From the IMG/VR virus record IMGVR_UViG_3300034418_006398, positions 1 through 44,679 of that record: a stretch of 44,679 nucleotides of DNA; one strand, given 5' to 3'. Position numbers and translations under genes: made by a program. Source of the DNA: a virus. The notes under the pieces are model-generated. The model did not search any database. It saw only the letters and a list, made by a program, of their open reading frames with translations, and was not told the DNA's origin. Below are positions 10,064 through 43,416 of this stretch, piece by piece. Each line of letters opens with the position of its first letter. Position 1 is the first letter of the stretch.

Positions 10064-12336
10064 GCAATCTATCTGACTTGTTGCCAGCAGGGGCGTCCGG
10101 AAAAAAAGCCACATTTACTGCATCAGGCGCGATTTCAAACGGTGATACCGTCATCCTGAACACAGACGGAACGATTAGCGTTGTAGCGCAGATTAGCGAG
10201 TCAAAAGGCTCGTCATCGACGTTTGAGTCGGCAAGTACAACTTATTTTGACTCTGTATATGACACTAACGCAGATGCAATAGTCATCTCCTATAGGGATA
10301 ACGGCCTTGGCGGTTATTTGACCGTTGTGGCTGGGTCTATATCGGGAAGCTCAATTACATTCGGCACACCCGTTGTTTTTTATAGCTTCGCGACCACCCA
10401 CACATCTATTGCATTTAATCCAGACAACAACACGATTGCGGTAGCGTTTCAGGCGAATACATGGGGCAGACATGCCGTTGGAAGCGTAAGCGGCACCACC
10501 GTCACTCTCGGTGGAACAGGCAATTTTTATGGGGCGTCCGCTGGGGAGTGTTCAATAGCCTACAACATAGCCGCAAGCAAGTGGGTGGTGGTAGTTGAAG
10601 GAGTCTCCAATTCCAACTATCTGTACTCATATAGCGGGAGCGGCGACTTAACCGGCATAAGCTGGAATGGCGCACAAAACATCAAAGCCGCCGCAGGGTA
10701 TTGGCCAAATGTTGTTTATGACCCCAACGCGGAACGCATCGTTATATTTTGGAGAGATGGTGGAAATGCCAACTACGGTACGGCTGTTGTTGGAGAAATA
10801 AACGCAAGCAGTACGGGATATGATTACGGTACTCCGGTAGTTTTTGAGAGCGGTCAGACTGACTACCCAGATGCCTGCTTTGATTCAGACAACAACCTTG
10901 TTGTCGTGGCATATCGCGACACTTCGGACAGCAACGCGGGTAAGGTTATAGCGGGTCAAGTTTCCGGAACGGGTACAGGCTCGACTATTTCTTTTGGGTC
11001 AGCAGTGGCAATCGGACAGCAGTCTGGCGATTACAGCATTACCTACGACGCCGTAAACAAAAAGTCGGTGGTTGGCGTTCGTAACGGCACAAACGGCTAC
11101 CCTTATGTCTACAACGCCACAGTTTCGTCAAACAAAAGCGTTTCTGTTGATTCTGGCTTTGAAATAAACACAACCGCCACATCTAGCACTCAATATAGCT
11201 CCATCTCTGTAACATATAGCCCAGACACGGCAACGACTGCTGTGATGTACTCAAATAGCAGTACATCGGGCGATGCGGTCGTATACCAGCCCTTGTCCAG
11301 CAACGCATTACCCACCCCCAAGTTTGTGGGGATTGCTCAAGAAGATATTGCTAATGCGGCGTCTGGAGAGGTTGTATTGGTGGGCGGAATAGCTGAAAAC
11401 GCCACGTCTGAAGTGACCACGACTAACTCTACCGTATACCTTCAGCTTGACGGAACACTGTCTACCACAGCCTCAGCTATTGAGGCTGGATTGGCGTTTG
11501 GCCCTTTAGCCGCGATTGGATATCAATTAAGCAATGCGTCTTATGACTCTGTGAATTTTAATGTGTTTGCGCAAGAGAACATCCCGACCGGAGTTTTATT
11601 TAATAACGATGGAACTAAGATGTTTATTGTTGGATACAGCGGAGATGAAGTTAATGAATACACATTAAGCACTGCTTATGATGTCTCTACTGCCTCTGCA
11701 TCAACATTATTTAGTGTTGCAAGCCAAGAACTTACCCCCCTTGGAATGTCGTTTAATAGCGATGGAACTAAATTTTATATTATAGGCTCTGCCAACGACA
11801 CAGTGTTTCAATACAGTTGCTCTACCGCTTATTCTATGGCAACAGCTTCTTATGACTCCGTAAGTTTTTCTGTGGCCTCGCAGTCTACTAATCCTACAGA
11901 TGTGACCTTTAATAACGATGGTACAAAAATGTACATTTCGTCTTCAAACGCATCTACGGGAGGAGTATATCAATATAGTTTAAGTACTGCGTTCAATGTT
12001 TCAACAGCTTCCTATGATTCTGTAACTTTAAACACAACTGCACAAGAAAATAACCAAAGGGCCATCGCATTTAATAATGATGGAACAAAGCTGTTTATTG
12101 TGGGTCAACAAAATGACACTGTTTTTGAATATGCTTTAACTACAGCTTACGATTTAAGCACAGCTTCTTATTCGTCAACCTCGCTTAGTGTCACTGCTGT
12201 AGTTACTGAACCACTAGGGCTTACATTCAAACCAGATGGAACCAAGATGTACCTTGTCAGCGCTGGCGGCAATGTTGCTGTTTATCAATACTCATCATCA
12301 ATTAACACAACCAGCAAACTTTTACTTAACGGGTAA
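10060..12336 (+). CDS. Double beta-propeller tail protein, paralogue 3
   Basis: This 758-residue protein overlaps paralogue 2 by 4 bases. The N-terminus MSNLSDLLPAG and the GAISNGDTVILNTDGTISVV segment are close to those of its two neighbours. The N-terminal propeller is more divergent, with several blades carrying Gly/Ser insertions. The linker KFVGIAQEDIANAASGEVVL is conserved. The five C-terminal repeats (NNDGTKMFIVG, NEYTLSTAYDVSTASA) are the most regular of the three, and codon use there is more AT-rich (runs of TTTAAT/GATGGAACT). The end is shorter (TSKLLLNG). It is inferred to be a receptor-binding protein. Confidence 0.65.
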   Translation: MSNLSDLLPAGASGKKATFTASGAISNGDTVILNTDGTISVVAQISESKGSSSTFESASTTYFDSVYDTNADAIVISYRDNGLGGYLTVVAGSISGSSITFGTPVVFYSFATTHTSIAFNPDNNTIAVAFQANTWGRHAVGSVSGTTVTLGGTGNFYGASAGECSIAYNIAASKWVVVVEGVSNSNYLYSYSGSGDLTGISWNGAQNIKAAAGYWPNVVYDPNAERIVIFWRDGGNANYGTAVVGEINASSTGYDYGTPVVFESGQTDYPDACFDSDNNLVVVAYRDTSDSNAGKVIAGQVSGTGTGSTISFGSAVAIGQQSGDYSITYDAVNKKSVVGVRNGTNGYPYVYNATVSSNKSVSVDSGFEINTTATSSTQYSSISVTYSPDTATTAVMYSNSSTSGDAVVYQPLSSNALPTPKFVGIAQEDIANAASGEVVLVGGIAENATSEVTTTNSTVYLQLDGTLSTTASAIEAGLAFGPLAAIGYQLSNASYDSVNFNVFAQENIPTGVLFNNDGTKMFIVGYSGDEVNEYTLSTAYDVSTASASTLFSVASQELTPLGMSFNSDGTKFYIIGSANDTVFQYSCSTAYSMATASYDSVSFSVASQSTNPTDVTFNNDGTKMYISSSNASTGGVYQYSLSTAFNVSTASYDSVTLNTTAQENNQRAIAFNNDGTKLFIVGQQNDTVFEYALTTAYDLSTASYSSTSLSVTAVVTEPLGLTFKPDGTKMYLVSAGGNVAVYQYSSSINTTSKLLLNG

Positions 12337-26656: not shown

Positions 26657-29600
26657 ATGGCCACAAGGGAAGAGCTTAAAAATGCGCTGGTAGACGCGCA
26701 TAAAGCGGGAGACTTTGAGGCCGCAGAGACGTTCGCCGGCATGATCCGCGGGAACGAGTTCGACCCAGAGACAACCGTTCTTGGCGCGACCGGAGAAATG
26801 CTGAAAGGCATTCCCCGTGGCGTGGCTAACAGTCTTATATCTACCGGCGAGGGCTTGTTCCAGCTCGCCGACGCCGGCCTGAATCTGGTCGGGCTAGAAG
26901 ATGCCATAGACGAAGAGGACGAAGATTATCTTCTGAATCTTGCTCGTCAGGGCCGAGAGGCTCTCAATGAAAGCGCTTTGGGCGTTGACCAACGATATCA
27001 GGACTCATTCGGCACCAAGTTTGGCGAGGGTCTTGGATCATTCTTTACCTTCCTTGGCCCCGGCCTGATCGGCAAAGCCGCAGGACTTACCGGAAAAGGA
27101 CTGAAAGCCGCCGAGCTTGGCGGTGCAGGCACGCTCGCGTATAGCGCCGGCGCTGGCGACCAGTCACAGAGAATCGCTCAGGCGCGGGCGCAGGGCATAG
27201 AAATTAGCCCTGAGACCGAGGACGCGGCTATCTTTATTGGCGCCGCCATCGGCTTGACCGAGCTAGCGCCCGTTGAACGATTGTTCAGGGGTCTGCCAGC
27301 GGACGTTGCCGGTCAGTCTCTCGCCAAGTCAATCATGCCCAGACTGATCAACGCGGCGAAGACAGGTGGCGTGGAGGGTGTGCAGGAGGTTACAGCCGGT
27401 CTCTTGCAGGACTTCACGGCTCGCGGACTGTATGACCCGAATACCCCGATTGGCGAATCAGCATGGGATGACCTGACTGTTGGTGGCGCAGTCGGTGCCG
27501 CCGCAGACCTTGTTGTTAACTATGCGGCAGGAAGACGTAAGTCAGCACTAAACCAAGCCGCCCTAGAGGAAGAGCGCCGGCTTAGAGAAAAAGAAGCCGC
27601 TGACGAGCAAGCACGCAGGGAGGCGCGGTCAGCGCCGGCAGTTGAGGAGGAGGTCGATGTAATTAATGTCGAGCCTGCTACCGTGCCGTTTACGACCACA
27701 GGGAAAGATGGTGCGCCTATCGTCGAGCAGAGACTTGCTGGCGGCAACCCATACAAGGCGACAGCAATTGCCATATCAGGCAGGATGGGATCATCTTTTC
27801 CCATGTACGAAAGTTTTGCTTTGGAGCAGGTGGGGGCGGAGTCCACTATCGTCGTGGACAGCCAAGGCAAGCAATACGGGCCTGAGTATGCCGACCCGAG
27901 GGAGGCAATACAGCTTGCAGGCGCCTTAAACGAGCAGGTGCTAGAGCAATCTCTGGAGCAGAATAATCTCCTTGCTATCAGCGAGATGGATGCGCGTCTT
28001 GATGACGATCAAAAACGGTCTCTGCTAACGCTTGGCCGTCAAGTTCTTGGCGCGGACAGGACTACATATAACAAGTCAGCAGTAGATTATGCCGCCGGGA
28101 CAATCGCAGAAGAGGGATTTGCGGATGATCTGACAGCCCAGCAGGCCATGGAGGCTGGCGTCAAGCCCAAGGATATGACCGCCTCGCAGAGGTTGAATGC
28201 GGCCAGAATCAAGAAGGGCCTGCCGGAGACGGACAGGTTCTCCATATCCGAAGTGCGCAGGGCGCTTGGGGATAACGTCGGGCGCCTTGCTGAGTTTGAG
28301 TCGGGCGCATCTGAAGTTGATACGTTGCGAGCCATGCAGAAAGATGGCGTGCCAATGATCAGCATAGATCGTGACGGCGTATCGACGGGAACCATAAACT
28401 CCAGACCGGCAACCGCTCAAGAGAAAGACGCGGCTCGCAGTGCGGGTAAACGCGCCCCGAACAGGGTGAAGTTCACTAGCATGCGGGACGCAATGAATTA
28501 CGCGGCCTTTGTTAACCAGCGCAAAGGCGGTTCTTTCATTAGCAGTTCTGAGCTGTTTGGCGAAGAGGATCTTAGCAGGGAGAAGTTTGAACAGCTCCTT
28601 GCGGCTAAAAACATCGACATGGGGTATATGTCCCCAGAGATGCGGCAGATTGCCCAGCGCTACACGGGCAGAAAGCTACGCCGCGACCAGTCCATCAATG
28701 ACCTCACAAAAGAAGAGCGGCAGTTGCTTTATTACAAGCTACGGCAGGCTCCTCGCTTCAACAAACCCACCCAAGTGCCTCTCTTTGAGGTAAAGCCATA
28801 CTCCCCCGCGCAACTACAGTTGGCTGTGGATCATCTGCGCGAGCAGGGTTCTGACATCCCTAGAGCGGCCTTTGAGTTCCGTGGCGTTGAAATCAAGCCA
28901 GCGGCCTATGAGAAGGTGGTCAAAAAAGCCAGAGAAATCGCCTCTCCGGCGCCATCTGTTGCTGTTGAAGAGTCAGAGATACTGGCGCTCCCGGCTCCAG
29001 ACCAGCGTCGTCAGGCAATGGCAAAGGCAATCTCAGACCGACTCACGGCTATGGGTCTGGCTGGCGACATAACCGCAAAGCTGGTTGATAGAGTCAGACT
29101 CGCTCGGGTTGACGCAGAGGGCAATATAACCTTTGTTGAAGACCCTAGAAGCGAAAGGAGTAGAGGCGCATACAACCCCGCCGGCAGGGTCATGCAAGTC
29201 AGCATTGACACCATCATGGAAGAGGTTGGCCCCGACGCAACCGACGCAGAGCTTGAAGCGGCCATACTCGGCACGTTTAACCACGAAACAATCCACGCGC
29301 TACGCGCATTAGACCTGATCACTCAGGAGGAGCTGGAGCTTCTTGAGCGTGTCGCCAGACGATACAAGCCCGTTAACGCTCGCGGCTATGAGGCCGGCGA
29401 GACCTTTGTTAAGTATGCGGCAAGGCAATACAGCAACCTCAACCCCGTCCAGCAGATGGAAGAGGCCATTGCGGAGCTAATCAAGTACGGCTACCAAAAC
29501 AAGCTGATCGATGACCGTGGCAATCCCGTCAAGCTGGGCGGCAAGCCAAGGACGCTGATGCGCCGCATCATGGATTTCTTCAAGCAGATGGTCGGCTTTA

Positions 29601-32600
29601 CCCGAGGCGTAGAAGCCAGAAACTTCAGCGACTTCCTGCGGCGTCTGGAGACCGGAGAGGTCGGAGCGAGAGAGCGCGGCGAGATACGAACGCTATACCA
29701 GACCGAGCGGCAGGCAGGAGTCGTCCCAGAGCGGGCTATAACCGGGACTGCTGTTGTTGCTGACACGTCACAGAGAAAGCCGCAGGCTGTCGGCGACCAA
29801 CCAACATTAGTAGCGGAAGAGGAGCTGGCGGAGGGAGAGTTGCTCGACCGTGTTCCTCTTGACACATCTGTCGATATCATTGAAGTCGTTTCCGGAGCAG
29901 AACAGCCGCCCAAGCTGAAAGGCAAGAAAGCAGTTGCAGGATACTTACAGCGGCGAACGCTGGAGCGCCTTGGTGGCGTGCCGCGCAATATCAACAGAGA
30001 GGCAGACCGCGAGGCTATCGCGGACGATCTGGCGCGTGAGGCGATCTTTGAATACGAAAACCAAGAGAGCGCCGTAGAGTGGTACAACGAGACTATCGAC
30101 AAGACGATTGAGATGCTTGCCGAAGTCCATCCGGAGATCAAGACAGACCCCGGTTCTCGGGCGGCGTTCCTGATGTCGCTAGCCATAACATCTCAGAACC
30201 TAGCGGTGCCAGACAATCTTGCGCTCGCGGAGCAGGCGTACAACTACTACAAAAAGAACGGCAAGTTCAAGGAAGAGGGTAAGGGCGACAAGAAAAAGTC
30301 GATGGAGGCCAACTTCAAGAAGGCGAACAAGCTACTGGCTAAGATGACCCCCGTTGAGATCGAGCAGTTCCTGCGCACGGAGTTCTTGGTCAAAGACCTC
30401 AACAAGGCGAGCAAAGCGCTTTTGGGCAAGCAAGCGGACACCGGAGAGCTGGCCGCAAACACCGTATATGGGTCGGCTATCTTTGGGCCGAAGATCGGCA
30501 ACGGCTTCTACACCAATCTGCGCGGCGACTTCAGTCCTGTCACGATGGACATGTGGTTTATGCGCACGATGGGTCGCCTTGCGGGAACGCTGACGGGTAC
30601 ATCAAAGACCAAGCTCGACAATGCTTACAAGCGATTTGCAACCGCCGTTGGAAAGAAACGTGTAGTCAAGGACGCCATTGAGCGCCAAGCCAGAGAGGCG
30701 AAGAGTCAGCACGAAAGCGATTACAGAAAGTATGCGGCTGAGTTCAAGTCAGGCAAGCGGGAGAAGAGCGAGAAAACGCTTGCGGCTGAAAACCTGATCA
30801 AGCTGTTAGACGGCACAAATGATGTGCCGATGAATGGCACCCACAGGAACCAGCTCAGAGATATCACATACAGGGCGATACAAAAGTTTGAGGACGCCAC
30901 AGGCGTCTCGATTGAACCGGCGGCATTCCAAGCCCTGATATGGTATCCTGAGCAGGATTTATACAAATCACTCGGGGTTAATCTACGACATGTTAGACAA
31001 GACTATGCAACCTCAACAGAGCAGTACCTTACCAAGCTCGGAGTTGACCGAGGCAGAATCAAGCGAGCCAAGGATCGGGTTCGGCGCCGCGCAGAGCGAG
31101 GACCAGATGGAGTTCGACGCGATGCAGATGTCGGAGGCCGAGATAGACGCGGGGCTGGACGGCTTGATAGCGCTCTTTCGGAAACAGAACAGCTAGAAGA
31201 TCGTTCAGCTCGCCAGATCGACCCAGTCAAGGTCGAGAAGGCGGTTCAGCAGAATCTCGACGCAATCAACCAGACTCAGGGACCGCCGCGCTTTAGCGTC
31301 AAGGCATCCCCAGAGGCGCAGTATATTGGCCGCAACCCAGAGGCGGCACTTGTTCCTGATGAGCAGTTATACGACCAGCCGGAATACTCCCCGGCGGCTC
31401 AGTCTGCTATTGACAAGTTAACAACAGGTCCAGAGCAAGAACAAGCGAATGGCAAGGTGTATATGCAGGTCACGGGTTCTGGCCCGATTGGCACCATGCT
31501 GACAACCTTTAAGCAGTTGGCACTGAACCGATACGCCGGTCTGGAAAAGTACTACCAGAAAGTGCCCATGCTGAGGGAGCTGGAGGCAGACTCCAGCGCC
31601 ATAGCCGCCGCGCTATTCGCCGACCGGTCTAGGGGTATTCTGGCCTCCGCAATCAAGCAAGGCGTCCCCGTTTATGAAAACGGCCTGACAAAGGTTGTGG
31701 ATTTCTATTACGGCGACAAGAAATACAACGGCCTGATTGACGTAATGTCGCTCATCTACAACAAGGAGGTGGGTGATCTGCGTAAGCTGGCGCAAGCATA
31801 CGCAATCGTCAAACGCGCTGACTACCTTAAAACAGTTGAGTACAAGAAGAAGGTGGCGGGCAAGGTCAAGACGATGGTCGGCAAGGAAACGCCGGTAGAC
31901 GAAAAGACTCGCGCAGAAATACTTGCCGCAGTTGACGCCTTGACGGATGTCAATGGATACAACCCCGTCACTGAATGGCACGACGTATGGCAGGCGTACA
32001 ACAACAAAACCATCGACTTTTTAAAAGCAACCGGCATTCTAAACGACGAGACCGCAGACCAGTGGCAGAAGTCGGCTTATGTCCCGTTTTACCGCCAAGC
32101 GCAGGGCGACAAGAATGTGCCGAAAGTGGCGACGGGGGTGTTCGGCGACCTGACTCACCTCTCCAGCTTCAAGGAGTACAAAGGTAGCGAAAAGGCGGTC
32201 GATATCGGCCTGATTGAATCTATATCCTTAAACCTGAGCGCCGCCATCGAAATGGGCATGCGCAATGTGGCACAGCAGAGAATCGCTAGGGATATGCAGG
32301 CGCTTGGCCTTGCGAGACAGGTCGGGCTGAAGCAAAGTGTCCCGAATGGGGTGAAGTTCAAGGTGAACGGCAACCCCGTCCAGTTTGAAATAGATGACAA
32401 CCTGATCTACAGCTCAATGGAAACACTGGGCGGTGGTGTTGTCACTGACATCTTAACCAAAACGCTTGGCTTTCCGAGCATGGTATTGCGAGAGACGATC
32501 ACGCGAGACCCCGGCTTTATGATTGCCAACCTGATGCGAGACACGTTTTCCACTTTCGTCACGTCAGGCTCTAACTTCATACCGGTTATAGACAGTCTCC

Positions 32601-34021
32601 GAGGTTTAGGCGATGGCATGGAGCGCCTTGAGCGCGTGGGTGTTGTGGGGGGCTACGACTACTCCAGAGATCCAGACGATGTAGTGAAGTTTTTCGCCGA
32701 CGAGTCAAACCGCAGGGGTATCGGCCCTGATGGGAAGCGCGGCGGTCCCTTGGGAATGTTCACAACGCTGTGGCGCTGGGCTGGCGAAGCAACCACTGCG
32801 TCAGACGCCGCCACCAGAAACGCCGTATACAATGACGTGCTTGCCAGAACGGGCAATGAGGCTGAGGCCGCATTCCAAGCGATGGAGATCATCAACTTCT
32901 CCAGACGTGGCGCACACCCGCTGGCTCGCGTCATCACTGCGGCGATACCGTTCCTTAACGCTAGGTTCCAAGGTTTGGATGTATTTGCGCGTGCGGCTAG
33001 CGGCAACTATTCAGCAGTAAGGAATCCTCGCGGCAAGACGCTACAGAAGTTCGCAACCAGAGCCTTGTTGCTGTCTGGTATTAGCGGCATCTATTACATG
33101 CTGGTCAGTGACGATGATCAGTATAAGGAGCAGTCAGACGAAGTCAGGGATAACAACTGGTTGCTCCCGACATCTGCCGGCGTACCTGTCAAGATCCCTA
33201 TCCCGTTTGAAGTGGGTCTGCTGTTTAAGACAGTTCCCGAAACCATTATGGCCGCAACGATTGGCGAAAAGACTGCCCCAGAGGTCAGGGAGACCATCAC
33301 GCGGGGCATCGTTTCGACACTGGAGATCAACCCGCTAGGCGCTCAGGCTGTGGCGCCGATTGTAGAGGCGAGCCTTAACCATAACTTCTTCACAGGAAGG
33401 GCCATCGTTCCGTACTACATCGATCAGAAGATTACGGGCGGGTTACAGGATTCTGCCGGCACCACGGAGATGGGTAAGTACATTGGGCAGGCGCTCAACA
33501 TCAGCCCCATGAAAGTAGACCACGTCATGTTCGGATACACCGGAACGATTGGTGGGTATGTGCTGAATTTAATTGATCGCGGGATGAAGTCGGAGTTCGT
33601 GCAGGGCGAAGACGCGCCACTGCCTCCATCCAAGAATGTGTTTGAGTTCCCGCTGTGGCGCAGGTTCTTTGGCCAAAAGGAGGGGTCTGGTCTGAGGGAG
33701 GATGCATATCAGCTCTATGACGAGATAACCACCGTGGTTAATACGGTCAACAGGCTGAAGAAGGATGGGCGAGCAGAGGATTTAGAGGCTTATCTGGCCT
33801 CCAGACGCCACTTGTATGATCTGAAAGACCCTGTATATTCCGTCAAAAGAAAACTGGACGCAGTCAGAGATCAGAAGCGCAAGGTGATCAATTCCAGTTT
33901 GGACCCCGATCTCAAGCGGGAAATGATTGATGACCTTGACGCGCAGTTGAATGAGTACCTGAAGGTGGTCACACGACTGAAGGAGGCGGCAGACCTTCCG
34001 TTCATCGAAACAACATTCTAA
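26657..34021 (+). CDS. Giant polyvalent ejection protein with zinc metallopeptidase motif
   Basis: This 2454-residue protein ends the ejection block. Its N-terminus (MATREELKNALVDAHKAGDF) and the following Gly/Ala-rich hydrophobic region resemble other phage polyvalent proteins. H876-E-T-I-H880, with a downstream E-E-A-I-A-E cluster at 935-940, forms a zincin active site. Residues ~1268-1310 (VYGSAIFGPKIGNGFYTNLR, then PVTMDMWFMRTMGRL) match a DUF7178-type domain. Residues ~1945-2110 (DPGFMIANLMRDTFSTF, INFSRRGAHP, PFLNARFQG) match LPD38. Domain numbers are from memory. The C-terminus is coiled coil. It is likely injected to cross the envelope, like T7 gp16. Around 31070-31200 the coding signal shifts frame (see findings). 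Confidence 0.7.
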   Translation: MATREELKNALVDAHKAGDFEAAETFAGMIRGNEFDPETTVLGATGEMLKGIPRGVANSLISTGEGLFQLADAGLNLVGLEDAIDEEDEDYLLNLARQGREALNESALGVDQRYQDSFGTKFGEGLGSFFTFLGPGLIGKAAGLTGKGLKAAELGGAGTLAYSAGAGDQSQRIAQARAQGIEISPETEDAAIFIGAAIGLTELAPVERLFRGLPADVAGQSLAKSIMPRLINAAKTGGVEGVQEVTAGLLQDFTARGLYDPNTPIGESAWDDLTVGGAVGAAADLVVNYAAGRRKSALNQAALEEERRLREKEAADEQARREARSAPAVEEEVDVINVEPATVPFTTTGKDGAPIVEQRLAGGNPYKATAIAISGRMGSSFPMYESFALEQVGAESTIVVDSQGKQYGPEYADPREAIQLAGALNEQVLEQSLEQNNLLAISEMDARLDDDQKRSLLTLGRQVLGADRTTYNKSAVDYAAGTIAEEGFADDLTAQQAMEAGVKPKDMTASQRLNAARIKKGLPETDRFSISEVRRALGDNVGRLAEFESGASEVDTLRAMQKDGVPMISIDRDGVSTGTINSRPATAQEKDAARSAGKRAPNRVKFTSMRDAMNYAAFVNQRKGGSFISSSELFGEEDLSREKFEQLLAAKNIDMGYMSPEMRQIAQRYTGRKLRRDQSINDLTKEERQLLYYKLRQAPRFNKPTQVPLFEVKPYSPAQLQLAVDHLREQGSDIPRAAFEFRGVEIKPAAYEKVVKKAREIASPAPSVAVEESEILALPAPDQRRQAMAKAISDRLTAMGLAGDITAKLVDRVRLARVDAEGNITFVEDPRSERSRGAYNPAGRVMQVSIDTIMEEVGPDATDAELEAAILGTFNHETIHALRALDLITQEELELLERVARRYKPVNARGYEAGETFVKYAARQYSNLNPVQQMEEAIAELIKYGYQNKLIDDRGNPVKLGGKPRTLMRRIMDFFKQMVGFTRGVEARNFSDFLRRLETGEVGARERGEIRTLYQTERQAGVVPERAITGTAVVADTSQRKPQAVGDQPTLVAEEELAEGELLDRVPLDTSVDIIEVVSGAEQPPKLKGKKAVAGYLQRRTLERLGGVPRNINREADREAIADDLAREAIFEYENQESAVEWYNETIDKTIEMLAEVHPEIKTDPGSRAAFLMSLAITSQNLAVPDNLALAEQAYNYYKKNGKFKEEGKGDKKKSMEANFKKANKLLAKMTPVEIEQFLRTEFLVKDLNKASKALLGKQADTGELAANTVYGSAIFGPKIGNGFYTNLRGDFSPVTMDMWFMRTMGRLAGTLTGTSKTKLDNAYKRFATAVGKKRVVKDAIERQAREAKSQHESDYRKYAAEFKSGKREKSEKTLAAENLIKLLDGTNDVPMNGTHRNQLRDITYRAIQKFEDATGVSIEPAAFQALIWYPEQDLYKSLGVNLRHVRQDYATSTEQYLTKLGVDRGRIKRAKDRVRRRAERGPDGVRRDADVGGRDRRGAGRLDSALSETEQLEDRSARQIDPVKVEKAVQQNLDAINQTQGPPRFSVKASPEAQYIGRNPEAALVPDEQLYDQPEYSPAAQSAIDKLTTGPEQEQANGKVYMQVTGSGPIGTMLTTFKQLALNRYAGLEKYYQKVPMLRELEADSSAIAAALFADRSRGILASAIKQGVPVYENGLTKVVDFYYGDKKYNGLIDVMSLIYNKEVGDLRKLAQAYAIVKRADYLKTVEYKKKVAGKVKTMVGKETPVDEKTRAEILAAVDALTDVNGYNPVTEWHDVWQAYNNKTIDFLKATGILNDETADQWQKSAYVPFYRQAQGDKNVPKVATGVFGDLTHLSSFKEYKGSEKAVDIGLIESISLNLSAAIEMGMRNVAQQRIARDMQALGLARQVGLKQSVPNGVKFKVNGNPVQFEIDDNLIYSSMETLGGGVVTDILTKTLGFPSMVLRETITRDPGFMIANLMRDTFSTFVTSGSNFIPVIDSLRGLGDGMERLERVGVVGGYDYSRDPDDVVKFFADESNRRGIGPDGKRGGPLGMFTTLWRWAGEATTASDAATRNAVYNDVLARTGNEAEAAFQAMEIINFSRRGAHPLARVITAAIPFLNARFQGLDVFARAASGNYSAVRNPRGKTLQKFATRALLLSGISGIYYMLVSDDDQYKEQSDEVRDNNWLLPTSAGVPVKIPIPFEVGLLFKTVPETIMAATIGEKTAPEVRETITRGIVSTLEINPLGAQAVAPIVEASLNHNFFTGRAIVPYYIDQKITGGLQDSAGTTEMGKYIGQALNISPMKVDHVMFGYTGTIGGYVLNLIDRGMKSEFVQGEDAPLPPSKNVFEFPLWRRFFGQKEGSGLREDAYQLYDEITTVVNTVNRLKKDGRAEDLEAYLASRRHLYDLKDPVYSVKRKLDAVRDQKRKVINSSLDPDLKREMIDDLDAQLNEYLKVVTRLKEAADLPFIETTF

Positions 34022-36126: not shown

Positions 36127-36333
36127 TTATATGCCGCCCAACTCTGCCAGCTTGTTCTGGGCCTTCTTCAAATCCTCAATCGACGCCTCAATGATATCCA
36201 GAGTGTCCGCGTTCATATTGGATATGTCGGTTATCCTCTTGATGGCCTTGTCCAGCTCCTCCAGCCTCTCCAGTACAGCGGTCACAGCTTGCTCTGCCAT
36301 GTCTCCCTCCAGTTCCACTTTAATTCTAGTCAC
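36127..36333 (-). CDS. Small helical protein of the recombination operon
   Basis: The start chosen is GTG 36333, which overlaps the upstream stop by 4 bases (GTGA), giving 68 residues: a short strand (MTRIKVELEGD) and then helices (TAVLERLEELDKAIKRITD, IIEASIEDLKKAQNKLAELG), coiled-coil-like. An ATG at 36300 with a better GGAGG box would give 57 residues and is an alternative. No known domain is recognised; a partner subunit for a neighbouring protein is plausible. Confidence 0.5.
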   Translation of the reverse strand: MTRIKVELEGDMAEQAVTAVLERLEELDKAIKRITDISNMNADTLDIIEASIEDLKKAQNKLAELGGI

Positions 36334-36755
36334 ACCCTTCCCTCTTCTGCCGGCGGGACGTAGTAACCAATCTCTGCGGCAATGCGGCACAGCGTCTCTA
36401 TTAGATCTGAATAGTCACCCCTAGAGGTTTCACTGCTACGCTTGGTCGGTCGTCGCCGAATGCCAAATTTGGTCGCATGCTCTGTCGAGCCGTAGCACTG
36501 GCAGAGCAGTTCCTCATGCATCTCATCAGGCGTCATCCCGCAGAACCGAGCAAATTCAGCGCAGTACTTGCGGTAGTAATTCTCCTGCGGTCTGGTCCGC
36601 TCGCTACGCAGGGGCTTGATCTCAATCGTGACCCCGTATGGCGCCTGCTTGTTGGTATCGATCAGCTCCTTGACGGAGTCGGGAAAGATTGAGGACAGAT
36701 ACTGGAACACGTTCATCAACTGGATGGACTTAGTTCGCGGAATGTGCAACTGCAT
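36330..36755 (-). CDS. NinB-like recombination protein
   Basis: This 141-residue protein is preceded by AAGGAG. After an N-terminal helix, VTIEIKPLRSERTRPQENYY with RKYCAEFARFCGMTPDEMHE and a C-terminal LIETLCRIAAEIGYYVP are laid out like the NinB/Orf family: a strand, an Arg-x-x-x-QN-x-YY motif, a His-Glu helix, and a final helix before a Pro-rich tail. In lambda this family assists RecBCD-independent recombination by binding ssDNA or SSB. It fits the surrounding recombination genes. The assignment is by pattern only. Confidence 0.55.
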   Translation of the reverse strand: MQLHIPRTKSIQLMNVFQYLSSIFPDSVKELIDTNKQAPYGVTIEIKPLRSERTRPQENYYRKYCAEFARFCGMTPDEMHEELLCQCYGSTEHATKFGIRRRPTKRSSETSRGDYSDLIETLCRIAAEIGYYVPPAEEGRV

Positions 36756-39911: not shown

Positions 39912-39938
39912 ATAATAGCGGGAAGAAAGAAATGTCAA
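39912..39938 (-). promoter_or_regulatory. Sigma70-type promoter for the leftward recombination operon
   Basis: On the minus strand, TTGACA (39938-39933) is a perfect -35 box and TATTAT (39917-39912) a near-perfect -10 box, 15 bases apart (slightly short). Transcription would start near 39905, just before the first leftward genes. The -35 box overlaps the start codon region of the divergent RusA gene. Confidence 0.6.
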
Positions 39939-40333
39939 ACAATATCGTAGAGATGGTGATTCATGGCGAGCCGTGTAGCAAAGCAAATAGCCGTAGACTT
40001 GTTAAGAGTAAGAGTGGCCGCCCGCTGTTTATCAAATCACAAAAAGCGCTCGACTATGTCAAGTCATTTCAGAAGCAATGCAGGAAAATTGAGCCGCCAG
40101 TCGAGAAAGATGTGGCGGTGCGCATCGTTATCTTTTATGCTAGCAGACGGCCTGACCTTGACGAATCTCTGATACTGGACTGCATGCAAGGCCCAATATA
40201 CAAGAACGACAGGCAGGTTAAAGAGAAGCACATAATTTGGGGCGGGGTTGATAAAGACAACCCGAGGGCAGAAATCAGTGTCCGATATCTACAAGACGGT
40301 TTACAGCAAGGTAATATTCCAAGCGATTCGTGA
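39932..40333 (+). CDS. RusA-family Holliday junction resolvase
   Basis: This 133-residue protein has the RusA signature: a GEPCSKANSRR N-terminal loop, a strand (VRIVIFYAS), RRPDLDESLILDCMQGPIYK with D75, D77 and D83, and NDRQVKEKH with D93. These acidic residues bind Mg2+ and cut four-way DNA junctions. It starts the rightward block, divergent from the recombination operon. A GGGAAG box precedes it, and a GATAAT -10-like element (39911-39916) lacks a clear -35. Confidence 0.8.
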   Translation: MSNNIVEMVIHGEPCSKANSRRLVKSKSGRPLFIKSQKALDYVKSFQKQCRKIEPPVEKDVAVRIVIFYASRRPDLDESLILDCMQGPIYKNDRQVKEKHIIWGGVDKDNPRAEISVRYLQDGLQQGNIPSDS

Positions 40334-40529
40334 TCTCGTTGGCGCACAGCCGCAAGAAAAAGAAGACGCCGTCAAGTATTTACAATCCCCAGCATTCCTG
40401 ATGCATTGCGACATCGCCGGTTTTCCGTCTGGGTTGCAGGATGCTCTGGATGAGATGTTACTACTCAGTAAAACTGAGCAGAAAGTCGTCGCCAAAATGG
40501 TGATGGAAGAGTTGACATCTAGTGTTTAA
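40278..40529 (+). CDS. Small conserved phage protein after RusA
   Basis: The start chosen is GTG 40278, 9 bases after GAGGG, giving 83 residues (MSDIYKTVYSKVIFQAIRDL); the frame runs 10 codons further upstream inside RusA. It contains EKEDAVKYLQSPAFLMHCDI and AGFPSGLQDALDEMLLLS, a pattern that recurs in short phage proteins of replication regions. It is helical. The function is unknown. It overlaps RusA by 56 bases. Confidence 0.55.
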   Translation: MSDIYKTVYSKVIFQAIRDLVGAQPQEKEDAVKYLQSPAFLMHCDIAGFPSGLQDALDEMLLLSKTEQKVVAKMVMEELTSSV

Positions 40530-40554
40530 AAAAATGCCCCCGATGGGCGGGGGC
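40528..40554 (-). terminator. Leftward-facing rho-independent terminator
   Basis: GCCCCCG-ATGGG-CGGGGGC (40536-40554) is a 7-bp stem. The seven-A run lies on its left (40528-40534), so the U-tract is on the minus strand and the hairpin ends leftward transcription. On the plus strand it lacks a U-run. No minus-strand gene lies directly to the right, so it may block antisense transcripts entering the RusA operon. Confidence 0.65.
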
Positions 40555-40576
40555 GAGACTCAAGGAGGTTCATTCA

Positions 40577-40664
40577 CTAGTACTGTCCTAGTCTAGTACA
40601 TTACTAAGTATATATAAATAGTAATGTTCTAAGCTGGTACTGTTCTAGTCTAGGACAGTTCTAG
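40577..40664. repeat. Compound palindrome cluster upstream of the helicase: candidate origin/operator
   Basis: Three nested elements occupy about 90 bases in a gene-free gap (40530-40704). First, a 29-base dyad 40578-40606 centred on T40592 has 12 of 14 pairs. Second, a 21-base dyad 40639-40659 centred on T40649 has 9 of 10 pairs; its core is a near-copy (19/21) of the first, 57 bases away. Third, between them, perfect 9-bp arms ACATTACTA (40598-40606) and TAGTAATGT (40619-40627) flank an AT-only core apart from one G. CTAG occurs six times. This fits a multi-site protein-binding region such as an origin or operator. Confidence 0.65.
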
Positions 40665-40704
40665 GGTCTACTCATATCACAAAAAAAGGGGGTAGGCAAG
40701 CATT

Positions 40705-42438
40705 ATGGATGCGCTGGAAGACTACGTTCTGAGCTACAACACGGACGCCAGAGTGAGGTGTCCCGATTGTGGCGATCAGCGAAAGAAGAAAAACCAAAAA
40801 ACATTTTCAATCACAATCAAGCCAGACAGTAACCTTTACCACTGCCATCATTGTGGTTTGTCGGGTGCTGTGCGGCGCAAAAAATTTTACGAGGCCCACA
40901 TGGAGAAGGTAGTAAAGATACCCACGCAATTAAATTACAACGTGCAGTTGATACAGGATTTTTTTGGAGCGCGTAACGTGCATCTGGATACCCTTGAGGG
41001 GTTACCAGCAATGACCACCGGCATGAAATATTTCAACGGCGCTCAACAGGAAGCAGTGGGTTTCATTTACGGGCCACGGGAAAACCCGACAGCGATCAAG
41101 TGGCGATCTGTTGAGGGCAAGGGATTTCTCTGCGATGGCGCCCCAAGATCATTTTACGGCATAGAAAACGTGGAGGAAACGGACGAGGATTTAACGATAG
41201 TCGAGGGGGAGTGTGATGTCATTGCCTTGGCTAGCGTTGGAATTAAGGCCGTTTCCTGCCCAAATGGTGCCCCCGCCAAGGTAAGCCAGAATCGGGTCTC
41301 TCCGGAGGAGGACAACAAGTTCTCGTATATCTGGGAGGAGAGGGAGCGTCTGGAGCGTGTCAAGCGCGTTATTCTGGCGACTGATAGCGATCAGGCAGGC
41401 GAGGCGCTGGCAGAGGAGATTGCCCGTCGAGTGGGTCGAGCCAAGTGCTGGCGGGTCAAGTTCCCCGAGGGCACGAAGGATGCAAACGATGCTGTTGACA
41501 AGTTAGGTGCAGAAGAAACACGCAGACTCTTCGATAACCCTGAGCCAGTTCCGCTGTCCGGAGTCTACGGTGCGTCAGAATATCTGAATGACATCAAAGA
41601 CATCTACGCCAACGGACACGGTCGTGGGGCGTCCACCGGTTTCCCCACCATCGATGAGTTGTTCACCATAGCGGAGGGGCAGTTATCTATCGTCACGGGA
41701 ATGCCGAGTTCGGGTAAGTCTGAGTTCATTGACCAGATCATGGTGAATCTGGCCCAGCGCGAGTCATGGAAGTTCGCCGTGTGTTCGTTTGAAAACCCGC
41801 CGCATATGCACATCGCCAAGCTGGCAGAGAAGGTGTCTGGCAAGCCGTTTTATGACGGGCTTGGCGCCAGAATGACAGAGGAAGAGCTGGATGAGGCGGT
41901 CAGCTTTATCAATGATCACTTTGTATTTCTGGAGTCAAAAGATGGCGGCATGAGCACCATCGACAGCGTCATTGAGCGCACCAAGCAGGCGGTTATGCGT
42001 CTGGGTGTGCGGGGGCTGATTATCGATCCCTATAACTATATTGAGCAAACAGGCACAGAAGAGCACAACGGCATCAGTCAAATGCTGAGTCGGATCACCG
42101 CATTTGCCAAGGCCCACGGCATCCATGTCTGGTTTGTCGCCCACCCCCAGAAGATGTATCCCCGTGAAGACGGCACCTATGCAGTGCCCAAGGGAATGAA
42201 CATTTCCGGTTCGGCGGCATGGTTTGCCAAGGCAGATCTGGGCATCACCGTTCACCGAGCGGAGGACTGCGTTGAGATACATTGCTGGAAGTCGAGGTTC
42301 AAGTGGACTGGTCAGCAGGGAGTTGCGTGTCTTACATATGAGTTGTCAAACGGTAGATATCACGACTGGTCTCCGCCAGTAGAGATCAAGACGATCAAGG
42401 GAGTTGACCGGAGTTGGGAGGATTTTGATGAGTTCTAG
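40705..42438 (+). CDS. Bifunctional primase-helicase (T7 gp4 / Twinkle-like)
   Basis: This 577-residue protein has an N-terminal zinc finger (C19-x2-C22, C47-x2-C50), a TOPRIM primase domain (E167-G-E169, D227-S-D229, and the KDANDAV motif at ~258-264) and a RecA-type helicase domain: Walker A GMPSSGKS (332-339), Walker B LIID441PYNY, and VAHPQKM with H480. This is the gp4-like hexameric primase-helicase that drives the phage replication fork. The gene follows the palindrome cluster. AAAAAAAGGGGGT precedes the ATG. Confidence 0.9.
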   Translation: MDALEDYVLSYNTDARVRCPDCGDQRKKKNQKTFSITIKPDSNLYHCHHCGLSGAVRRKKFYEAHMEKVVKIPTQLNYNVQLIQDFFGARNVHLDTLEGLPAMTTGMKYFNGAQQEAVGFIYGPRENPTAIKWRSVEGKGFLCDGAPRSFYGIENVEETDEDLTIVEGECDVIALASVGIKAVSCPNGAPAKVSQNRVSPEEDNKFSYIWEERERLERVKRVILATDSDQAGEALAEEIARRVGRAKCWRVKFPEGTKDANDAVDKLGAEETRRLFDNPEPVPLSGVYGASEYLNDIKDIYANGHGRGASTGFPTIDELFTIAEGQLSIVTGMPSSGKSEFIDQIMVNLAQRESWKFAVCSFENPPHMHIAKLAEKVSGKPFYDGLGARMTEEELDEAVSFINDHFVFLESKDGGMSTIDSVIERTKQAVMRLGVRGLIIDPYNYIEQTGTEEHNGISQMLSRITAFAKAHGIHVWFVAHPQKMYPREDGTYAVPKGMNISGSAAWFAKADLGITVHRAEDCVEIHCWKSRFKWTGQQGVACLTYELSNGRYHDWSPPVEIKTIKGVDRSWEDFDEF

Positions 42439-42518: not shown

Positions 42519-42998
42519 ATGTCTGACAAGTCACACACAGACCTCGGCACGAAAGAAATTTACAAACGCCACGCCGTGATGGTCGAGGGCGGCACGATGC
42601 CTCGGGCCAAGGTGATGGATCAGACGCTGATCGACAGGTATCTCATGGACGGTCTGATTTCTTTGTCGCAACATCAGGCCGCTGAATACATCATGAGTCA
42701 GGCGTTGCAGGCGGGGCTATACACCAAGCCCCTTAGCTCTGAGCCGTCATCCGGTGAGCGAGCCAAGGACGCCATCGCCACAGAGTCGCTGATGCGTTAC
42801 GGGCGCACGCTGGACCTAATCAGCAAGCGGTTCGGCCCGTATCACAAGTATCTGGTGGAGGAGGTCGTTCTGCATGGGTGGGACGTGTCTCTGGACGCCA
42901 AGAAAATGGGCACGCTGAAGGAGGGGTTGGATTGGATATCTGACCGGCGCTTGGCGGGTGGACGCAATCCATTAAAAAGACTGAGGGAAAGCAGGTGA
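42519..42998 (+). CDS. Conserved phage protein of unknown function
   Basis: This 159-residue protein starts at ATG 42519 (MSDKSHTDLGTKEIYKRHAV). It has helices VMDQTLIDRYLMDGLISLSQ and HQAAEYIMSQALQAGLY, then SLMRYGRTLDLISKRFGPYH and LVEEVVLHGWDVS. The arrangement, an RYLMDG-x-IS-x-xQ helix followed by a conserved GP...VV-x-V-x-HG segment, is common in phages and prophages of proteobacteria, but I have no firm family name. The final GGRNPLKRLRESR is basic. It may be a replication accessory or DNA-binding protein. Confidence 0.5.
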   Translation: MSDKSHTDLGTKEIYKRHAVMVEGGTMPRAKVMDQTLIDRYLMDGLISLSQHQAAEYIMSQALQAGLYTKPLSSEPSSGERAKDAIATESLMRYGRTLDLISKRFGPYHKYLVEEVVLHGWDVSLDAKKMGTLKEGLDWISDRRLAGGRNPLKRLRESR

Positions 42999-43204: not shown

Positions 43205-43316
43205 TCTGACGGGACCGATCCTGATCGGAGCGGCGTGGGTGATGATGGGGTTGATCGCGGGATTTTTGCTGACAGCTACCGCCATCGGCGCAGTGTCATT
43301 CTGGATGTTTGGGTAA
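43194..43316 (+). CDS. Tiny single-TM protein (40 residues)
   Basis: This 40-codon frame starts at ATG 43194 inside the end of the DUF3310 gene. It encodes MGSDLTGPILIGAAWVMMGL then IAGFLLTATAIGAVSFWMFG, one or two short hydrophobic segments with no charged residue after position 4. It is the last gene of the rightward block. It may be a small membrane protein such as a host-modulating peptide. Only length and hydrophobicity support it. Confidence 0.45.
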   Translation: MGSDLTGPILIGAAWVMMGLIAGFLLTATAIGAVSFWMFG

Positions 43317-43357
43317 AGGTGCGGTGGATAGCGTCTTACCGATCACATGAGAGTTGA

Positions 43358-43416
43358 TAGCCCCCAGTAAGAACACTTTGCCCACGCCACCGCTCGCGGT
43401 TAGGAGTTTGGGGCTA
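43358..43416. other. Long stem-loop at a convergent gene junction
   Basis: TAGCCCC (43358-43364) pairs perfectly with GGGGCTA (43410-43416) across 45 bases. Inside lies a smaller hairpin ACCGC-TC-GCGGT (43389-43400), and GATC boxes flank the outer stem. The right arm contains the stop codon of the leftward gene. No U-run follows on either strand, so a simple rho-independent terminator is not supported. It could be an RNA processing or convergence element. Confidence 0.4.

Follow-up and report, generated by a model that had tools for sequence, protein, structure and literature searches.

Paired dyad arrays in aquatic phages, one beside a primase–helicase gene: a possible replication-origin and regulatory module

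Layout of the array 1 locus

The window, that is, the whole stretch of 44,679 nucleotides that was analysed (IMG/VR record IMGVR_UViG_3300034418_006398, positions 1 to 44,679), contains a 175 bp gap between the stop codon of a small open reading frame (ORF; 40527–40529) and the start of a primase–helicase gene (40705). Array 1 lies in this gap and consists of five copies of the 13 bp dyad TAGNA-NNN-TNCTA (units 13–15 bp) at a pitch of about 16 bp. The dyads start at 40578, 40594, 40619, 40635 and 40651, with start-to-start steps of 16, 25, 16 and 16. The features of the locus and the neighbouring genes are as follows:

36330–36755, strand −: NinB/Orf-like protein, the main early family tracking the dyad arrays; a weak candidate for the binder or its partner
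39932–40333, strand +: RusA-like Holliday junction resolvase
40248–40529, strand +: ORF of uncertain start whose stop lies at the terminator; a search of group B gave no homologue
40529–40664, strand −: leftward RNA of about 135 nt without a conserved ORF, predicted from the promoter and terminator positions
40536–40554, strand −: leftward intrinsic terminator GCCCCCGCCCATCGGGGGC, then a T-run (40535–40529)
40577–40664, no strand assigned: array 1, five tandem dyads either side of an AT core, from the sequence; retained in 38/38 close relatives
40578–40590, no strand assigned: dyad unit 1, TAGTACTGTCCTA
40594–40606, no strand assigned: dyad unit 2, TAGTACATTACTA
40607–40618, no strand assigned: AT core AGTATATATAAA, 12 bp
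40619–40631, no strand assigned: dyad unit 3, TAGTAATGTTCTA
40635–40647, no strand assigned: dyad unit 4, TGGTACTGTTCTA
40651–40663, no strand assigned: dyad unit 5, TAGGACAGTTCTA, covering the predicted +1 of the leftward promoter P_L
40671–40676, strand −: P_L −10 TATGAG, with the extended −10 TGA before it (40679–40677); TGnTA invariant in the gap alignment
40694–40699, strand −: P_L −35 TTGCCT, from the gap alignment; match to TTG-N17-TGnTA
40705–42438, strand +: twinkle/DnaG-type primase–helicase (Toprim and DnaB_C, phrog_239)
42519–42998, strand +: conserved helical protein after the primase, a second, weaker binder candidate; not found in group B

Several claims of the first-pass annotation were reproduced on counting. 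Its two near-identical 21-mers (at 40577 and 40634, 57 bp apart) are equal at 18 of 21 bases, its perfect 9 bp inverted repeat (ACATTACTA, 40598–40606, and TAGTAATGT, 40619–40627) encloses the 12 bp core, and the six CTAG tetramers reported for about 90 bases fall within the 88 bp of 40577–40664. CTAG, described there as rare, is depleted in the window (79 observed versus 126 expected). At least six CTAG within any 88 bp stretch were obtained in 0 of 300 dinucleotide shuffles of the window, and clusters of at least two dyads at a rate of 0.007 per shuffle (300 shuffles). The 30 bp segment at the AT core belongs to the lowest-GC 0.022% of the contig. Half-sites are repeated, as had been stated, but their supposedly alternating geometry is one of plain tandem dyads with a 16 bp pitch. 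The first-pass annotation had recognised no phage origin of this geometry; the lambda O iterons and the paired origins of SPP1 are comparable. The array had also been said to sit alone in the only sizeable gap of the region; by ORF coordinates the gap at 43205–43413 is larger, and array 1 is framed by a leftward promoter (40699–40671) and a leftward terminator (40554–40529). The rest of the window was scanned for the dyad and gave occurrences at about chance level, for which reason a master operator acting over many operons was rejected.

The phage encodes an exonuclease and the Sak annealing protein in addition to RusA. Elsewhere in the window, a giant protein is encoded by a single ORF of 2454 residues (26657–34021, strand +), and the related phage MinM2 has an 8.4 kb gene in the corresponding region. 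An Rfam match to Mu-gpT-DE RNA (411–469, strand +; 52.1 bits, gathering threshold 49) is located directly 3' of the end of the apparent major capsid gene.

Leftward promoter and terminator

The array 1 locus was aligned over 17 gaps (mean identity 56%). Besides the dyad positions, the invariant element was a leftward-strand TTG-17-TGnTA between the array and the primase start, which in the window reads TTGCCT-17-TGA-TATGAG and is of the sigma70 type; array 1 is just downstream of this promoter, P_L. The exact pattern TTG-N17-TGnTA was found at 28/28 group A loci, with 0.009 expected per gap, the sequences being related and the counts consequently not independent. Across the group A loci the 17 bp spacing is constant and the distance to the primase ATG variable, and in most of them the first dyad half-site starts 5–8 nt past the −10, over the predicted +1. 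Group B has a similar leftward promoter, less strict than that of group A.

The terminator is located at the stop of the ORF upstream of array 1, and an A-run with a GC stem is present at its site in all 28 group A loci checked. For the window, the predicted leftward RNA forms a single long hairpin when folded (z = −6.3). Its own terminator and the lack of a conserved ORF are more in keeping with an origin or regulatory RNA than with an ordinary operon.

Conservation of the dyads and their reading as DNA or RNA

The sample of relatives comprised 80 viral contigs encoding a relative of the primase–helicase. An alignment of the gap across related phages, which had been proposed as a check, found the array kept in 38/38 contigs with a primase at least 72% identical and the gap covered. 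Among the 80 contigs, the exact dyad array was absent from relatives with a primase at most 57% identical. A consensus built from 96 distinct units reads CTAG[G>T>A]A[C/A]N[G/T]T[C/T/A]CTAG. Steps from unit to unit are mostly 16–17 bp; those across the core range over 21–28 bp in group A, and groups B and D have 36 bp there. With such spacings the idea of strict helical phasing across the core was dropped.

In the 96 distinct units, no covariation was detected at opposing positions within a unit (positions 5/11: 38% Watson–Crick versus 36% expected, p = 0.41). The units are therefore read as DNA dyads and not as RNA stems, and RNA hairpins formed by single units were ruled out. The wider proposal that the array acts as a transcribed hairpin, in a leader or in the leftward RNA, is very improbable: besides the missing covariation, folds differ between relatives, and unit number and spacing vary. 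In its favour are the long hairpin predicted for the leftward RNA of the window, the structured RNA held by array-less sister phages in the corresponding slot, and a complementarity of mirrored units across the core that is weakly above chance (of 5 variable positions, 2.90 within arrays versus 2.25 between them; p = 0.0006 without a control for relatedness).

A second array at the late operon

When viral contigs were scanned with the dyad pattern, the same units were found beside terminase genes in other phages. The near-complete or long relatives G001–G004, G011 and G025 have two arrays each, one ahead of the primase and the other flanked by the small terminase gene and the late gene next to it, and the distance between them is 9.5–10.9 kb in G001–G004 and G025. 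Both arrays are also present in the group B contigs G018 and G021, and neither in the sister genomes G014–G016. The window is a partial contig, which stops short of the array 2 position. The single master operator of the first-pass annotation thus gives way to one of two arrays per genome.

Array 2 is at the start of the late operon and adjoins the small terminase gene in groups A–D. It follows a strongly conserved promoter-like block, TGTAGACATG...TGTCAAGGGGGTATATTCTNTACAATCC, about 25 bp past its −10, and is on this ground placed in the late leader. Both arrays are just downstream of a sigma70-type promoter, and an AT core is present at both loci, the core segments belonging to the lowest 0.01–0.5% GC of each genome (a measure of composition only). 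GC-skew minima are found near array 2 in five genomes; the coding strand switches there too, and skew was discarded as evidence for an origin because of this confounding. A further small inverted repeat, with the sequence TTGAC..GTCAA or GACA..TGTC, was observed over the −35 region of the late promoter in L148:3180–3420 and relatives, G019, G027 and G028; another regulator may bind there.

The position of array 2 in groups A–D would suit terminase recognition sites of the pac/cos type, with the dyads bound by the small terminase subunit (TerS). We consider this very unlikely, as array 1 is located beside the primase, at a distance of about 10 kb, and the TerS type does not co-occur with the arrays: TerS of the array-less G014/G015 is closer to that of group A (E about 1e-31 to 1e-34) than is TerS of the array-bearing group B (about 1e-10 to 1e-13). 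TerS was rejected as the dyad binder for this distribution across array-bearing and array-less genomes.

A purely transcriptional pair of operators is a more serious alternative, and nearly as likely as the origin/regulatory module discussed below. A phage repressor or regulator would shut or modulate P_L and the late promoter and have no direct replication role, and the AT core would merely aid bending or looping between the dyad groups. Such operators are suggested by a first half-site that, at most group A loci, covers the predicted P_L +1, by the position of array 2 past the −10 of the late promoter, by dyads that are typical for dimeric repressors, and by two targets, which would make up a small regulon. 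Arguing against them are a P_L that serves no gene and ends at its own terminator, an AT core of extreme composition retained at both loci, and the domain searches, in which no HTH_3 repressor of an array-bearing genome scored over the cut-off and a LexA-type domain occurred only in group D and the array-less G016 among the genomes scanned.

Concerted change at the two loci

In the primase tree, the array-bearing groups A and B are on opposite sides of a well-supported split, and the array-less clade L047–L063 joins group B. From these placements, the arrays probably go back to an ancestor and disappeared in L047–L063. The slot between RusA and the primase in this clade (e.g. L053:4600–5000, strand +) is occupied by a conserved structured non-coding element of about 350–400 nt. 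This element comes in two related types and matches nothing in Rfam, and 22 of its base pairs are changed on both sides among 7 sequences; it is a candidate new phage RNA. In the array-less L045/L046, the gap before the primase has AT-only palindromes (TATAGATATATCTATA and one of 28 bp), possibly another type of dyad.

Three divergent outliers, G026, G027 and G028, were inspected. The dyad of G028 is TAAATANTATTTA at both loci (0.1 chance matches expected in the contig), with four copies at an exact 16 bp pitch and one more in array 2, and one copy in array 1. In G027, AGGAATATTCCT occurs exactly twice, once per locus; no clear dyads were seen at the loci of G026. Nothing argues more strongly for one phage-encoded, trans-acting reader of both arrays than this concerted change of the dyads at two distant loci, and a single phage-encoded protein probably reads them. 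The earlier proposal of a phage protein that recognises repeated half-sites is supported in the same way and by the persistence of the dyads in all close relatives. At the level of sequence, the array, its pairing, the promoter and the co-evolution are demonstrated.

A host transcription factor site exploited by the phage is the least probable of the explanations. The distribution of the arrays is matched by no phage regulator with a recognised HTH, as such a site would allow. Against it, related phages differ in dyad sequence in a concerted way at the two loci, and a scan of 84,980 species genomes of bacteria and archaea gave next to no such tandem dyads (4 stretches, one of them from a phage of this lineage in an archaeal MAG). 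Both arrays are also present on contig L142 (PBMQ01000020, 61 kb); this contig belongs to a phage of the present lineage and was binned in the Euryarchaeota MAG SP209, which indicates a binning error in that MAG.

Candidate reader proteins

The reader was sought by HMM search with 115 group A families. The Myb-like protein and the HTH-phosphoesterase proposed earlier as binders were set aside, neither being found in the array-bearing group B genomes. The NinB-like protein and a 68-residue membrane-like protein (groups A and B) are the sole early families that occur where the arrays occur and are missing from genomes lacking them. The NinB-like protein accompanies the arrays in 13/13 group A contigs, in groups B and C and in the three outliers, and is absent from 23 others, a distribution mostly explained by one shared loss in the tree. 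Its fold model has lambda NinB as best match, a weak one (E = 0.03). As the NinB family prefers single-stranded DNA (PMC4118853), the NinB-like protein may act as a partner and not itself read the dyads.

A structure search with the protein encoded after the primase gave no PDB match, and no initiator, gp38-like ones included, was recognised among the proteins scanned. No HTH_3, HTH_17 or LexA domain is common to the array-bearing genomes. The LexA-like protein adjoining the array in L110 was rejected as binder, since the other array genomes lack it and the array-less G016 has it. Free-standing LexA DNA-binding domain proteins are encoded near the terminase genes at L110:1982–2278 (array-bearing) and G016:1023–1208 (array-less), and a free-standing integrase-type Arm DNA-binding domain was observed in a group C phage contig (L090:11385–11645, strand −).

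Proposed function

The best explanation, to which we give just short of an even chance, is that array 1 is half of a paired replication-origin/regulatory module resembling SPP1 oriL/oriR. The AT core, the gene-less P_L with its terminator, the primase–helicase neighbourhood, the paired layout and the exonuclease, Sak and RusA count in favour of this module; the dyad over the predicted +1 and the place of array 2 in the late leader count against it, fitting a pure operator equally well, as do the fused primase–helicase and the failure to recognise an initiator homologue among the proteins scanned. The array pair is probably a protein-controlled switch for the onset of DNA replication and late gene expression. 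We lean towards array 1 serving as both origin and operator, of which we infer the origin part.

In the proposed mechanism, one phage-encoded, probably dimeric DNA-binding protein would read the paired cis-acting sites, cover the dyads, wrap or bend the DNA and strain the AT core. At array 1, the strained core and short leftward transcription would set the start of replication beside the primase–helicase gene, and the reader would also control P_L through the first dyad over the predicted +1. At array 2, in the late operon, the action of the same reader would make the site a second origin, a fork barrier or a late-gene switch.

A bolder version, which we hold to be rather unlikely, is a dual-origin/regulatory switch of widespread aquatic phages of about 55–62 kb: one protein of diverging specificity would bind two co-evolving dyad arrays, an oop-like gene-less transcript would start replication at the first, and the second would couple the replication switch with late transcription. 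With a co-evolving pair of sites defined to exact coordinates, the origin and the early–late switch of these phages become testable, and the concerted dyad change at two loci provides a natural series for tracing the reader protein and the evolution of its specificity.

Comparison with known systems

By TerL and primase, the closest named phages are HTVC023P-type pelagiphages and Synechococcus phage MinM2, which have the same gene modules as the phage of the window. In HTVC023P, similar units form a weak array immediately before the small terminase gene (11680–11790). An array-like site is also present in HTVC027P, which like HTVC023P is cultured and for which RNA-seq data exist (PMC12753301). 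No array was found at the primase of HTVC023P-type pelagiphages and MinM2, and none in the stretches scanned of MinM2, DSL-LC04 and 023Pt_psg01. In the HTVC023P-type literature searched, promoters and origins are not treated, and the search returned no publication on these sites or on an origin or early–late switch for HTVC023P-type and related aquatic phages.

The lambda OL/OR, Mu and 186-type operators are tandem dyads overlapping promoter starts at two loci. The present arrays share tandem dyads over (here predicted) promoter starts at two loci with them, but differ in the central AT-rich core, the promoter without a gene and the lack of a recognised repressor.

The SPP1 origins oriL and oriR are two sites about 12–13 kb apart, with repeats and an AT-rich unwinding element, and are bound by gp38 (PMC6316719, PMC3485210); theta replication from oriL is followed by recombination-dependent replication (PMC3485210, PMC6316719). 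Both systems have two sites per genome about 10–13 kb apart, one at replication genes and one in the late region, repeats common to both sites with an adjoining AT-rich element (here by composition only), and an exonuclease, an annealing protein and a Holliday junction resolvase, the sort of enzymes that serve SPP1 in its recombination-dependent replication. In contrast to the direct repeats inside the SPP1 initiator gene, dyads here lie either side of a core; a Toprim/DnaB_C primase–helicase fusion takes the place of the DnaB and loader of SPP1 (and lambda); no gp38-like protein was recognised, both arrays are behind sigma70-type promoters, and the origin activity is putative.

In lambda, the O iterons are dyad-symmetric and the oop RNA has a terminator. 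Loss of the pO/oop promoter harms lambda replication (PMC3985674). The closest counterpart of P_L is this pO/oop promoter. Array 1 resembles the lambda system in a convergent promoter beside a replication gene that gives a short leftward gene-less transcript (here predicted), and in dyad-symmetric iterons with AT-rich DNA; it differs in being intergenic and within the leftward unit, whereas the lambda iterons are inside gene O, and in having a second array at the late promoter. The overall layout would unite paired origins like oriL/oriR of SPP1 and an oop/pO promoter like that of lambda. Each part belongs to a known kind; what is new is their arrangement, in which paired co-evolving dyad arrays lie behind promoters, one of them in a gene-less unit.
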